NCBI RefSeq assembly: GCF_013912005.1
Contig: NZ_JACESB010000017.1
Location: forward strand, 1-50,991
DNA length: 50,991 nt
DNA from: Brevundimonas sp.
GTDB taxonomy: Bacteria > Pseudomonadota > Alphaproteobacteria > Caulobacterales > Caulobacteraceae
Reading direction: 5' to 3'
Position numbers and translations under genes: made by a program. The notes below the pieces were generated by a model that was given only the letters and a program-made list of their open reading frames with translations, made no database searches and was not told the origin of the DNA. Below are positions 5,726 to 42,997 of the stretch, one piece after another (the stretch's first letter is position 1; every line of letters begins with the position of its first letter).

Positions 5726-6289
5726 TTGGACGCCTTCCTGATTTCGACCGGCCTGGTCTCCGTGGCGGAGATCGGCGACAAGACCATGCTGCTGGCGATC
5801 GTTCTGGCCGCGGCCTGGCGCAGGCCGCTGCCGATCCTGCTGGGCATCCTCGCGGCGACCCTGGCCAATCACCTGTTCGCCGCGGTCGCCGGGGCGGTTC
5901 TCGCCCAGTTCATGCATGGCCCCTGGGTGCGATGGGTGGTGGGGATCGCCTTCCTCGGGTTCGCGGTCTGGGCCCTGGTCCCGGATCGTTTCGACGAGCG
6001 GCCGGACACGACCGAAAGGACCTTTTCCGGCGTGTTCTGGACCACCGCCGCCGCCTTCTTCGTGATCGAGATCGGCGACAAGACCCAGGTGGCCACGGCC
6101 ATGCTGGCCGCCCAGTTCCAGTCTGTGGCGGTGGTCGTCGCCGGCTCCACCCTGGGCATGATGCTGGTCAACGGGCCGGCGGTGCTGATCGGCGAGGCGG
6201 CGGCGCGGCGGCTGCCGCTGCGCTGGATCCGGATCGCCGCCGCCCTGGGATTCGCCGGCACGGGGCTCTGGGTTCTGCTGGCGGGCTGA
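5726..6289 (+). CDS. TMEM165/GDT1 family (UPF0016) manganese/cation exporter
   Basis: A 187-residue inner-membrane transporter with two homologous halves, each carrying the family signature E-x-G-D-K-T: VAEIGDKTMLL near residue 15 and VIEIGDKTQVA near residue 114. About six hydrophobic helices fit the family. Bacterial members export Mn2+; others move Ca2+ or H+. The start is a TTG at 5726: no ATG or GTG occurs in frame upstream, and family proteins normally begin just before this DAFLIST stretch. The leader contains a yybP-ykoY riboswitch, which independently supports a role in Mn2+ detoxification. A gap of 36 bases separates it from the VanZ-like gene, so co-transcription is possible. Confidence 0.9.
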   Translation: MDAFLISTGLVSVAEIGDKTMLLAIVLAAAWRRPLPILLGILAATLANHLFAAVAGAVLAQFMHGPWVRWVVGIAFLGFAVWALVPDRFDERPDTTERTFSGVFWTTAAAFFVIEIGDKTQVATAMLAAQFQSVAVVVAGSTLGMMLVNGPAVLIGEAAARRLPLRWIRIAAALGFAGTGLWVLLAG

Positions 6290-39752: not shown

Positions 39753-39907
39753 CGCCTGTCTCCCTGGTTGGCGCGGCCATCCATGCGGCGGGGGGCGGTG
39801 AGCGTCATGAGCAAGTTCTGAGCCCGGCCTGAAACCTTCCTGCGAGGGCGTCCGAAGATCGGCTGCGGCGGCCCTTGAACGCTGCGGACGGCCGCCCCAG
39901 ATGACCG

Positions 39908-40016
39908 CCACTCATCGAGATCGGCTGAGGGGCAGGCCCTTTGACGCCGGGGCAACCGCCGCAGCTGCGGAATGGTGCCAACTCCTGCGGGGACCCTGTC
40001 CTCGACAGATGAGTGG
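39908..40016 (+). promoter_or_regulatory. S-box (SAM-I) riboswitch
   Basis: The order of conserved elements is that of an S-box. P1 pairs CCACTCATC (39908-39916) perfectly with GATGAGTGG (40008-40016). P2 joins CGGC with GCCG around GAGGGGCAGGCCC and TTTGA, giving the kink-turn and pseudoknot loop. Then comes GGGCAACC, P3 CCGC..GCGG, the core GGTGCCAACTCC, and P4 CTGCGGGGAC with GTCCTCG-A-CAG. The last bases read AGATGAG. A competing hairpin (GAGT..CGCC with GGCG..ACTC) overlaps the 3' side of P1. It would switch off the ATP-grasp/monooxygenase operon when S-adenosylmethionine is abundant. Confidence 0.9.
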
Positions 40017-40070
40017 GGCGCCTCCGGGCGGACTCACCCGCTGTCGCCCGTGGAGTTCTCGATCCGTGCG

Positions 40071-41000
40071 ATGGAGGCTCCCCTGGCTGATCTGGCCGTA
40101 TTCTACGAACACCCGACCTGGTTCGAACCCCTGTTCGCGGCGCTGGATCGCCGCGGCGTGGACTGGCGCGCGATCGCGGCCGGCGACCACACCTTCGATC
40201 CGGGACCCGGCGCGCCGCCGGCCCCGGTGATCCTGAACCGCATTGGCATGTCGGCCTTCCTGCGGCAGAGCGACCATCCGATCTTCTACGCCCGCACCCT
40301 GTTCGACCACTGGCAGGGGCAGGGCGCGCGGGTGGTGAACGGCGCCGCCATGGACGTCGACACCTCCAAGGCCCGGCAGATCTCGCTGATCCGGCGCCTC
40401 GGCCACGGCGCCCCCGAGACCCGGGTGGCGCACCGGATCGTCGACCTTCCGGCCGCCGCCGCGGAGCTGCGCTTCCCGGTGCTGGTCAAGCCGGACATCG
40501 GCGGGTCGGGCGCCGGCATCCGCCGGTTCGAGACGGCCGAAGACCTCGCCGCCGCAGTGGCGGGCGGGGAGCTGTCGATGGGGATCAACAGCACCGTCCT
40601 GGTGCAGGAGGCGGCGCCGATCCGCGGCGGCCGCATCGTGCGGATCGAGACCCTGGGCGGGCGCTTCCTGTACGCCTGCAGCGTCGAGAGCGGCGGCTTC
40701 GACCTGTGCCTCGCCGACGTCTGCCTTGTGGCGCCGGGCAAGCCCTCGCTGCAGATCCAGCGTGTCGAACCGCCGGCCGCAGTGGTCGCGGCGGCGGAGT
40801 CCATCGTTCAGGCGGCGGGCATAGACGTCGGCGGGGTCGAGTACCTCGTCGACGACCGCGACGGCTCGGTGCTGTTCTACGACGTCAACGCCCTGTCCAA
40901 CTTCGTCGCCGACCCGCAGGCGGTGCTCGGCTTCGACCCCCACGACAACCTGATCGACTACCTCGTCGACGAGATCGCCGCCAGGAAGGGCGCACAATGA
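40071..41000 (+). CDS. ATP-grasp ligase (RimK-like), SAM-riboswitch controlled
   Basis: About 309 residues, soluble. The N-terminal ~110 residues form a pre-ATP-grasp domain (LADLAVFYEHPTWFEPLFAAL). The ATP-grasp core has FPVLVKPDIGGSGAGI (the ATP-binding Lys and glycine loop), VLVQEAAP and GVEYLVDD...VLFYDVNALSNF with the metal-binding acidic and Asn residues. Such enzymes ligate a carboxylate to an amine or thiol using ATP; relatives include RimK and peptide ligases. The substrate is unknown. ATG 40071 is used; GTG 40050 is possible. Its stop overlaps the monooxygenase start by 4 bases and an S-box lies in the leader, so the product probably belongs to sulfur or methionine metabolism. Confidence 0.82.
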   Translation: MEAPLADLAVFYEHPTWFEPLFAALDRRGVDWRAIAAGDHTFDPGPGAPPAPVILNRIGMSAFLRQSDHPIFYARTLFDHWQGQGARVVNGAAMDVDTSKARQISLIRRLGHGAPETRVAHRIVDLPAAAAELRFPVLVKPDIGGSGAGIRRFETAEDLAAAVAGGELSMGINSTVLVQEAAPIRGGRIVRIETLGGRFLYACSVESGGFDLCLADVCLVAPGKPSLQIQRVEPPAAVVAAAESIVQAAGIDVGGVEYLVDDRDGSVLFYDVNALSNFVADPQAVLGFDPHDNLIDYLVDEIAARKGAQ

Positions 41001-42037
41001 GATACGGCTATTGGGCTCCGGTGTTCGGCGGCTGGCTGCGCAACATCCCGGAAGAAGGCGGACCGGCCGACTGGGAGTCGATCTCGCGGCTGGTGCGGCG
41101 GTCGGAGGATCTCGGTTACGACCTGACCCTGATCGCCGAGCTGAACCTGAACGACATCCGCGGCGTCGAGGCGCCGGCGCTGGACGCCTGGTCCACCGCC
41201 GCGGCGCTCGCCGCCGTCACCCGCTCGATCGAGCTGATGGTGGCGGTGCGGCCAAATTTCCACCAGCCGGCGCTGTTCGCCAAGGCCGCCGCCAACATCG
41301 ACAATATCGCCCGCGGACGGCTGGCGCTGAACGTGGTGTCCTCGTGGTGGGCGAAGGAGGCGCAGAGCTACGGCCTGCACTTCGACGAGCATGACGATCG
41401 CTACGCGCGCACGTCCGAGTGGCTGAAGGTGGTCGACGGCCTGTGGTCGGAGAAGCGCTTCAGCTTCTCCGGCGACTACTACCGGCTCGAGGACGCGATC
41501 GTCGAACCGAAGCCGTTCCGCCGGCCGCGCCCGGTGGTCTACGCCGGCGGCGAGTCCGACGCCGCCAAGACGATGATCGCGCGGCAGTGCGACGCCTATG
41601 TCATGCACGGCGACACGCCCGAAATCATCCGCGGCAAGATCGCCGACATGCGCGAGCGGCGCGACCGGGAGGGCCTGCCGCCGCTGCAGTTCGGCATGGC
41701 CGCCTACGCCATCGTCCGGGACAGCCAGGCGGAGGCGGAGCGCGAGCTGGAGCGGATCACGATCATTCCGGGCCTCGCGGAAGGCGCGCCGCCGCCGGGC
41801 TTCGCCAACTTCGACCAGTGGCTCTCGGGCACGCAGCTGGAGCGGGAGATGAAGGTCCGCGAGTATTCCGTCTCCAACCGCGGCCTGCGGCCCGGCCTGG
41901 TCGGGACCCCGGAGACCGTGGCGGAGCGGCTGGAGGCCTTTGCGGATGCGGGCGTCGATCTGGTGCTCCTGCAGATGAGCCCGCAGTTGGAGGAGATGGA
42001 GCGCTTCTCGCAGCAGGTGATCCGGCCCGCCGGCTGA
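40997..42037 (+). CDS. LLM flavin monooxygenase, sulfone/sulfonate (SfnG/SsuD)-like
   Basis: FMN-dependent monooxygenase of 346 residues. The opening MRYGYWAPVFGGWLRNIPEEGG, with RPNFHQPALFAKAAANIDNIARGRLALNVVSSW and RPVVYAGGESDAAK, is very like the dimethylsulfone/methanesulfonate/alkanesulfonate monooxygenase group, which releases sulfite from organosulfur compounds. It starts at ATG 40997, overlapping the ATP-grasp stop in ATGA, so the two are coupled. With the SAM-sensing leader, use of an organic sulfur source when methionine is scarce is the simplest reading (inference). No flavin reductase is adjacent. The hairpin at 42064 may end the transcript. Confidence 0.85.
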   Translation: MRYGYWAPVFGGWLRNIPEEGGPADWESISRLVRRSEDLGYDLTLIAELNLNDIRGVEAPALDAWSTAAALAAVTRSIELMVAVRPNFHQPALFAKAAANIDNIARGRLALNVVSSWWAKEAQSYGLHFDEHDDRYARTSEWLKVVDGLWSEKRFSFSGDYYRLEDAIVEPKPFRRPRPVVYAGGESDAAKTMIARQCDAYVMHGDTPEIIRGKIADMRERRDREGLPPLQFGMAAYAIVRDSQAEAERELERITIIPGLAEGAPPPGFANFDQWLSGTQLEREMKVREYSVSNRGLRPGLVGTPETVAERLEAFADAGVDLVLLQMSPQLEEMERFSQQVIRPAG

Positions 42038-42106: not shown

Positions 42107-42997
42107 ATGTCCTCTCCGATCCGCCCGCCCCTGGTCCGCGACCCCCTGCCCGATCGCCTGGCGCGCCCGGTCCGCCGGGTGATCGCCGGCCGGGTGGTGC
42201 GGCTGTTCAACGACCCCGACAAGGGGGAGCGCCCGGTGGCGCGGCGGCCCGACGGGCTGTTCGGCCCGGATTCCGTAGCCTGGCGGGTGCACGGCGACGT
42301 GACCGGGATGCTGGTCGGCGGCGTGTCGGGCCTGCTGCTGCAGATGCTGCACCCGGCCGTGCTGGCGGGCGTCTGGGACCATTCCAACTTCCGCGCCGAC
42401 ATGCACGGCCGGCTGCGGCGGACCGCCCGCTTCATCGCCGTAACCACCTATGGCGGTCGTGACGAGGCGGAGGCGGCCATCGAGCGGGTGCGGCGCATCC
42501 ATGGACGGGTCAGCGGCGTGCTGCCCGACGGCGCGCCCTACGTCGCCGACGATCCGCGGCTGCTGGCCTGGGTGCACGTGACCGAGGCGACCAGCTTCCT
42601 GAACGGCTGGCTGCGCTACGGGGAGCCCGGCATGTCGATGGCCGACCGCGACCGGTATTTCGCCGAGATGGCCGAGGTCGGGCGACGTCTGGGGGCCGAT
42701 CCGGTCCCCGGGTCGCGGCAGGAGGCGCGGGCGCTGATCCGGGCGATGCGGCCGGAGCTGAGGGTCGACGAGCGGACCCGGGAGGTGGCGCGGCTGCTGC
42801 TGTCGCGCGAGGGCGGCGATCCGGCGGCCCGCCCGCTGCGGGCCCTGATGCTGCAGGCGGGCGTCGATCTGCTGCCGGGCTGGGCGCGGCGCATGCACGG
42901 CCTGTCGTCGCCCCTCCCGGCCCGGCCGCTGGTGCGCACCGGAACCTCGGGCGTGGCGCGGACGATCCGCTGGGCCTTCGAGACGCCGTACCGGTGA
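42107..42997 (+). CDS. MpaB-type oxygenase (DUF2236) family protein
   Basis: A 296-residue protein with the DUF2236 hallmarks GPDSVAWRVHGD, LLLQMLHPAVLAGVWDHSNFRADMHGRLRRT and LLAWVHVTEATSFL, holding conserved histidines and arginines likely to bind heme or metal. Family members include the fungal MpaB oxygenase and Lcp-like (latex clearing) rubber oxygenases. No signal peptide is visible. It begins 69 bases after the monooxygenase, so it might be the third gene of the SAM-controlled operon, but a hairpin lies between. Substrate unknown. Confidence 0.82.
   Translation: MSSPIRPPLVRDPLPDRLARPVRRVIAGRVVRLFNDPDKGERPVARRPDGLFGPDSVAWRVHGDVTGMLVGGVSGLLLQMLHPAVLAGVWDHSNFRADMHGRLRRTARFIAVTTYGGRDEAEAAIERVRRIHGRVSGVLPDGAPYVADDPRLLAWVHVTEATSFLNGWLRYGEPGMSMADRDRYFAEMAEVGRRLGADPVPGSRQEARALIRAMRPELRVDERTREVARLLLSREGGDPAARPLRALMLQAGVDLLPGWARRMHGLSSPLPARPLVRTGTSGVARTIRWAFETPYR

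Follow-up and report, generated by a model that had tools for sequence, protein, structure and literature searches.

Why a SAM riboswitch should stand ahead of a ligase and a flavin monooxygenase is the question raised by this locus of Brevundimonas sp. (contig NZ_JACESB010000017.1; the window, as used below, is the whole stretch of 50,991 nucleotides that was analysed). As with other SAM-I riboswitches (RF00162), a complete aptamer above the cut-off precedes the genes, and the other S-boxes of the genus precede methionine genes, whereas the two genes controlled here belong to no known methionine pathway. A cmscan search placed RF00162 (SAM, S box leader) at 39909..40015 on the + strand with 89.1 bits (E 5.7e-20; gathering cut-off 44.4), covering the complete model (1-108) with all helices of the family present. 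The preliminary description had claimed a complete S-box directly upstream of two overlapping genes, and both parts were borne out: the aptamer ends 55 nt ahead of the ATG at 40071, on the same strand as the ATP-grasp gene, and the ATP-grasp and LLM open reading frames overlap as ATGA. Judged by its sequence, the element appears to be a genuine SAM-I riboswitch in an unusual place.

Upstream of the aptamer, a putative promoter-like element, TTGAAC-17-CAGATG, was read by eye (39875..39903, +). The linker between aptamer and start codon (40016..40070, +), presumably the expression platform, is similar to the linker of a corresponding leader in a MAG labelled Phenylobacterium (L162, NZ_JAPSKZ010000110.1; shuffle p 0.0005), and no strong Shine-Dalgarno sequence was found at the usual spacing from the ATG at 40071. 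When the window and L162 leaders were folded with P1 present or absent, no clear switch emerged; among six metX leaders treated in the same way as controls, one showed a clear change (L115, 0.31 to 0.07 unpaired), one a small change (L116) and four none. In the unconstrained minimum fold, the start region pairs with the 5' part of the aptamer, a result left unused because co-transcriptional folding is ignored there. By analogy with the riboswitch family, the operon would be expressed when SAM is scarce (SAM = OFF).

S-boxes had been called uncommon in alphaproteobacteria, which holds for the class as a whole but not for this genus. In a class sample, only 5 of 289 genomes carried an S-box at E <= 0.001, four of them above the cut-off and two of the five being Brevundimonas, and the alpha-proteobacteria are nearly devoid of SAM-I according to an excerpt of the work of Barrick and Breaker (PMC2258182). 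Within Brevundimonas, in contrast, the element is a normal, genus-wide trait, present in 110 of 121 genomes (109 above cut-off). This may have been little noted so far; a further study, as far as its excerpt tells, covered four Caulobacterales genomes (PMC3766115). The genus yielded 122 S-box matches, and the genes behind 20 of these were read, with gene families checked on examples: metX-metB type genes followed in ten cases, a TonB-dependent receptor in eight, metY in one, and one match was cut at a contig end (L112). The window genome (2.9 Mb) itself has a second S-box preceding metX-metB, the products of which, MetX (homoserine O-succinyltransferase; 390.3 vs 296 bits) and cystathionine gamma-synthase (586.2 vs 504.55 bits), exceed their cut-offs.

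Some of these second S-boxes deserve mention in their own right. In one genome (L114, G391) the second S-box precedes metY (O-acetylhomoserine sulfhydrylase), and in eight (L105-L111, L113) it stands before a TonB-dependent receptor, whose barrel and plug were confirmed in L105, L107 and L110. Between S-box and receptor, all five genomes examined have a short ORF (30 to 41 codons), with a TG.MRCRR-like stretch in four of the five; it is possibly a Cys/Met leader peptide.

The first gene of the pair (40071..41000, +) encodes a predicted ATP-grasp ligase of 309 aa, which two alignments, of 14 and 46 sequences, show to be conserved; its start at ATG 40071 was placed by homologues and its stop lies at 41000. 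The domain was recognised by Pfam CPSase_L_D2 (24.1 bits vs a cut-off of 19.8), and K140, D271 and N273, which we take to be the catalytic residues of ATP-grasp, are invariant in 46 sequences. An ATP-grasp likeness is shared, at low score, with RimK-type ligases, yet the cut-offs of both the NCBIfam family TIGR00768 (36.6 of 143.4 bits) and Pfam RimK (18.8 vs 21) were missed. Distant ATP-grasp relatives (23 to 35% identity) had no LLM match within flanks of 1.5 kb. Two such relatives (L027, L030) come shortly after genes for an O-succinylhomoserine sulfhydrylase-like protein and an OsmC protein, the families having been checked in L027 alone.

The second gene (40997..42037, +) encodes an LLM-class flavin monooxygenase of 346 aa (Bac_luciferase, 200.8 bits). 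Among NCBIfam models, SfnG (TIGR04021) fits best and aligns over the full length, yet its 230.7 bits fall short of the cut-off of 382.95, so that the label "sulfone-type" given to the enzyme in the preliminary description was too specific. The SsuD model TIGR03565 was likewise missed (172.6 vs 518.2 bits), as were all SfnG, SsuD and RutA cut-offs. Within the shared LLM superfamily, the enzyme is set apart from SfnG also by its ever-close ligase gene and by its best solved relatives, 3rao and 8vw6, compared to which SfnG (8t0u) and MsuD (7jv3) are much more distant. To MsuD and SsuD it is related, by sequence, as a member of the same LLM fold family. In MsuD, W195 and R225 are among the residues which bind sulfonate and are required for activity, as stated in an excerpt of the respective study (PMC8234197); in our alignment, however, these positions are H and A in the window LLM. 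The H is kept in 71 and the A in 74 of the 76 family members read, the motifs not having been caught in the other 5 and 2 sequences. Given this replacement of W195 and R225, the substrate of the LLM is probably not a plain sulfonate. Reduced flavin could be supplied by FMN_red proteins, of which the window genome has four matches, in a family that is common (13 of 14 control genomes).

Ligase and monooxygenase form a tight but scattered unit. Within the genus, the LLM was detected at E <= 1e-60 in 33 of 121 genomes, and the ATP-grasp gene stands directly before it in all 33, one of them cut by a contig end. Among the best 80 of 314 ATP-grasp relatives, all loci from named genomes, the LLM follows directly downstream in 76, and the pair is thus by no means co-located in the window alone; the four loci without an LLM match are L158, L196, L215 and L232, of which L215 lies at a contig end. 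Hosts among these best 80 of 314 include Caulobacterales, Sphingomonadales, Rhodanobacter, Nevskia and others. Culturable carriers are Brevundimonas alba DSM 4736 and Sphingomonas sp. Leaf343, the latter with metNIQ-like genes after the pair. We term the unit scattered rather than common because only 4 of 398 genomes of a phylum sample, the window genome included, carry the LLM at E <= 1e-70. In the open-licence PMC literature, judged by titles and the beginnings of abstracts, the gene pair was not found. Of the 34 genus loci read, one is cut inside the ATP-grasp gene (L147) and one has an LLM remnant only (L144). In L009, L144 and L158 (G301), only a C-terminal remnant of the LLM gene is left behind an intact ATP-grasp gene. 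In the window, a gene for an MPAB/Lcp-type oxygenase (42107-42997, +) follows 69 nt after the LLM on the same strand; it lies probably outside the unit, since it is absent among the neighbours recurring at other loci.

The surroundings of the pair offer a view on its function which does not depend on the S-box. In 12 of the best 80 of 314 loci, the pair is flanked by MetN-, MetI- and MetQ-like genes, a count from which MetN matches below 45% identity were dropped. These lie downstream in several Sphingomonas genomes (in L181, the order is ATP-grasp, LLM, metN and metI with overlapping ends, then metQ) and upstream in Novosphingobium, Nevskia and others. For ten MetN/I/Q-like proteins tested, methionine ABC models were the best NCBIfam match, all below the curated cut-offs. 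CuyA, a D-cysteate sulfo-lyase, and CuyB, a cysteate racemase, adjoin the pair in one of the 80 named loci (best 80 of 314), namely in B. intermedia (L184), with scores above the equivalog cut-offs (503.7 vs 450 and 238.1 vs 190). At this locus, a DUF3182 protein (PF11379, 407 bits; L184:2897-4072, -) is encoded after cuyA-cuyB beside the pair.

Beyond the pair itself, Deinococcus deserti has the consecutive genes CuyA-CuyB-ligase-LLM, with an LLM of 56% identity, CuyA and CuyB over the equivalog cut-offs, and a ligase with no useful similarity to the window ATP-grasp protein. A ligase similar to that of D. deserti also precedes an LLM in D. peraridilitoris, in a stretch having neither CuyA nor CuyB. 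In Spirosoma, an ATP-grasp relative with 46% identity precedes two amino acid permease genes and an LLM that belongs to a different subfamily (26% identity) and has W and R at the sulfonate-binding positions of MsuD. The Deinococcus ligase and the Spirosoma LLM were consequently rejected as the same genes as those of the window. Since Deinococcus swaps the ligase and Spirosoma the LLM, ligase and LLM stay together despite the exchange of one partner.

Moreover, CuyA above its cut-off was present in 31 of 33 LLM-bearing genomes of the genus vs 52 of 88 others (Fisher p 1.3e-4, uncorrected for ancestry), the CuyA of the window genome being located on another contig. Taken by their sequences, the neighbours in several lineages thus appear to support a sulfur role of the pair independently of the S-box, and the link to sulfur and methionine supply proposed at the outset gained by the MetNIQ-like genes and by CuyA-CuyB in B. 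intermedia and D. deserti. The MetNIQ-like genes, CuyA/CuyB and the permeases therefore indicate an amino-acid-like organosulfur substrate, which narrows the search for it; the predicted non-sulfonate site of the LLM fits poorly with neighbours of the cysteate type. No hydrolase that could reverse a ligation was conserved beside the pair in the best 80 of 314 loci, and the neighbours recurring in at least 3 of these 80, read by eye, included no acyltransferase or deacylase.

How could these components work together? We give about an even chance to the proposal that a SAM-I riboswitch, probably copied from the metX-metB leader, controls a two-gene operon for sulfur scavenging by ligation and subsequent C-S cleavage. 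When SAM becomes scarce, the operon would be switched on; an imported amino-acid-like organosulfur compound would serve as starting substrate, the ATP-grasp enzyme would couple it to a partner in amide or peptide linkage, and cutting of a C-S bond in this conjugate by the flavin monooxygenase would set free a sulfur fragment for cysteine and methionine synthesis. Both the order of these steps and the amino-acid nature of the substrate are what we infer here. The scheme would represent a ligase-based counterpart of the "acetylate, cleave, deacetylate" strategy of Bacillus subtilis, in which S-(2-succino)cysteine must be N-acetylated before an FMN monooxygenase can break its C-S bond, as described in an excerpt of the respective report (PMC12757645). 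The proposed analogy to this scm/yxe cluster lies in a conjugation combined with an FMN-dependent monooxygenase acting on an S-modified amino acid. However, the cluster relies on an acetyltransferase and a deacetylase, whereas the pair uses an ATP-grasp ligase and an LLM from a different subfamily and lacks a conserved deacylase. ATP-dependent conjugation by the ligase could play for the LLM the part of N-acetylation. The more general idea of the preliminary description, a release of sulfur under SAM control, is plausible. In this context, the riboswitch assigns a metabolic need, for SAM or methionine, to a pair that sequence models alone cannot place, and, if true, ligase-assisted C-S cleavage would add a new step to the ways in which bacteria scavenge sulfur.

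The alternative that survives best, although we regard it as unlikely, is an ordinary two-component sulfone or sulfonate assimilation of the SfnG or SsuD/MsuD type under SAM control, with the ATP-grasp protein in a side role. SfnG is indeed the best model for the LLM, MetNIQ- and CuyAB-like neighbours are compatible with general organosulfur use, and W and R are found where MsuD binds sulfonate in the LLM of the Spirosoma cluster, a protein only 26% identical. The window LLM, however, misses every cut-off of these families and shares the H and A of nearly all its relatives at those very positions, and a side role would leave unexplained why the ligase adjoins the LLM in 76 of the best 80 of 314 loci, and why a ligase of a different family does so in Deinococcus.

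To a still lesser degree, we expect that damaged sulfur amino acids, e.g., S-alkylated or oxidised cysteine or methionine, are the target, and that the pair repairs or detoxifies these instead of feeding on external compounds. According to the excerpt available of PMC12757645, some B. subtilis clusters of acyltransferase, FMN monooxygenase and deacylase serve the recovery of alkylation-damaged cysteine, but the vicinity of the pair, with its MetNIQ-like uptake genes and its amino acid permeases, rather points to a substrate from outside.

The distribution of the riboswitch itself sets limits to its role. An S-box before the pair was found only in the window genome and in L162 (80% identity, 87.0 bits), where the genes upstream of the pair differ from those in the window. 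Searching 131 genus genomes for close ATP-grasp homologues (E <= 1e-125) returned seven, i.e., the window and six relatives with 76 to 78% identity, and no S-box lies ahead of the pair in these six. An Rfam scan of 22 loci from other genera, 11 with MetNIQ-linked operons and 11 further ones, gave no SAM riboswitch either. S-box control is consequently no general property of the pair, and the S-box is a lineage-specific regulator. In 25 of 34 genus loci, an inverted repeat, TTGCGTTyCA-N6-TGTAACGCA, is located just before the start codon, in three of them with changes. Across 14 genomes chosen to include carriers and non-carriers, this palindrome had one site each in ten, always at the promoter of the pair, and none in the other four, and a wider regulon was not found in these 14. 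Its occurrence once per genome at the pair promoter suggests that it is a dedicated operator of the pair. Its placement at these promoters (e.g., L129-L143) resembles the operator of a dedicated regulator together with a near-leaderless promoter.

Since a single small clade comprises two leaders with the aptamer intact and six without it, gain and loss of a riboswitch before a single operon become readable. A tree built from 32 ATP-grasp proteins pairs the window with L162 (96/93) and unites both with the six relatives (100/100 for the eight). In the six sister leaders, TTGACG lies 38 nt ahead of a TCGAGA-like string, and in the window, L162 and metX leaders a hexamer of the TTGAC-/TTGAAC-type lies 40 nt ahead of the matching part of the aptamer; relative to the promoter-like hexamer of the window, the TTGACG/TTGACC hexamers of L162, the six sister leaders and the metX leader of the window genome are shifted little or not at all. 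Compared with the L162 linker, the sister leader L161 matches at 24 of 29 positions, in a stretch about 12 to 18 nt ahead of the start codons (shuffle p 0.001), while the other five gave p values of 0.08 to 0.45, which are not significant. Against the window, only L161 (0.018) and L159 (0.048) fell below 0.05, all p values being uncorrected for the number of tests. Because the sister leaders keep the TCGAGA-like string at nearly the same promoter distance, we favour the reading that the six relatives lost the aptamer from their leader; alternatively, the S-box was inserted into an older hairpin leader in the window and L162. Regarding its source, the aptamers of window and L162 group together (0.99) beside the metX aptamer of the window genome, the last link being without support, and the metX linker weakly resembles that of L162 (p 0.018) but not significantly that of the window (p 0.12). 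From these comparisons, copying of S-box and promoter from the metX-metB leader of the window genome appears likely, albeit not proven.

Given this patchy distribution, the S-box could also be a transposed or decaying leader of little effect, with a role of the pair unrelated to SAM, a view we hold to be more doubtful than that of repair. The folding of the window and L162 leaders without a clear switch, the six relatives which lack the aptamer in a similarly laid-out leader, and the once-per-genome palindrome of other relatives would all be in line with it. On the other hand, the aptamers of window, L162 and metX have diverged, yet those of window and L162 still match the model over its whole length with 87 to 89 bits, and the sulfur-related neighbours elsewhere agree with SAM control. 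Least probable of all is a role outside sulfur metabolism, with a peptide-like product made or modified by the pair and an S-box acquired by chance co-option. ATP-grasp and LLM enzymes do both occur in natural product pathways, but no biosynthetic neighbours are conserved and the recurring ones are transporters and cysteate enzymes.

Our preferred reading, at its full extent, falls somewhat short of an even chance: a novel ATP-dependent sulfur salvage, in which conjugation by the ligase would allow a new LLM subfamily to cleave C-S bonds, and which would have been captured by a copy of the metX riboswitch, with the aptamer later lost in close relatives. Such a salvage route would extend over Caulobacterales, Sphingomonadales and some gamma-proteobacteria, with variants in Deinococcus and Spirosoma in which one partner was swapped, and would be linked to MetNIQ-like uptake and to D-cysteate breakdown. 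That the Spirosoma LLM belongs to a different subfamily slightly reduces the odds of this reading.

Apart from the S-box, the window carries a manganese riboswitch (yybP-ykoY, RF00080; 5529-5630, +) with 61.8 bits, which precedes the gene of its expected partner, a GDT1-type cation antiporter (5726-6289).
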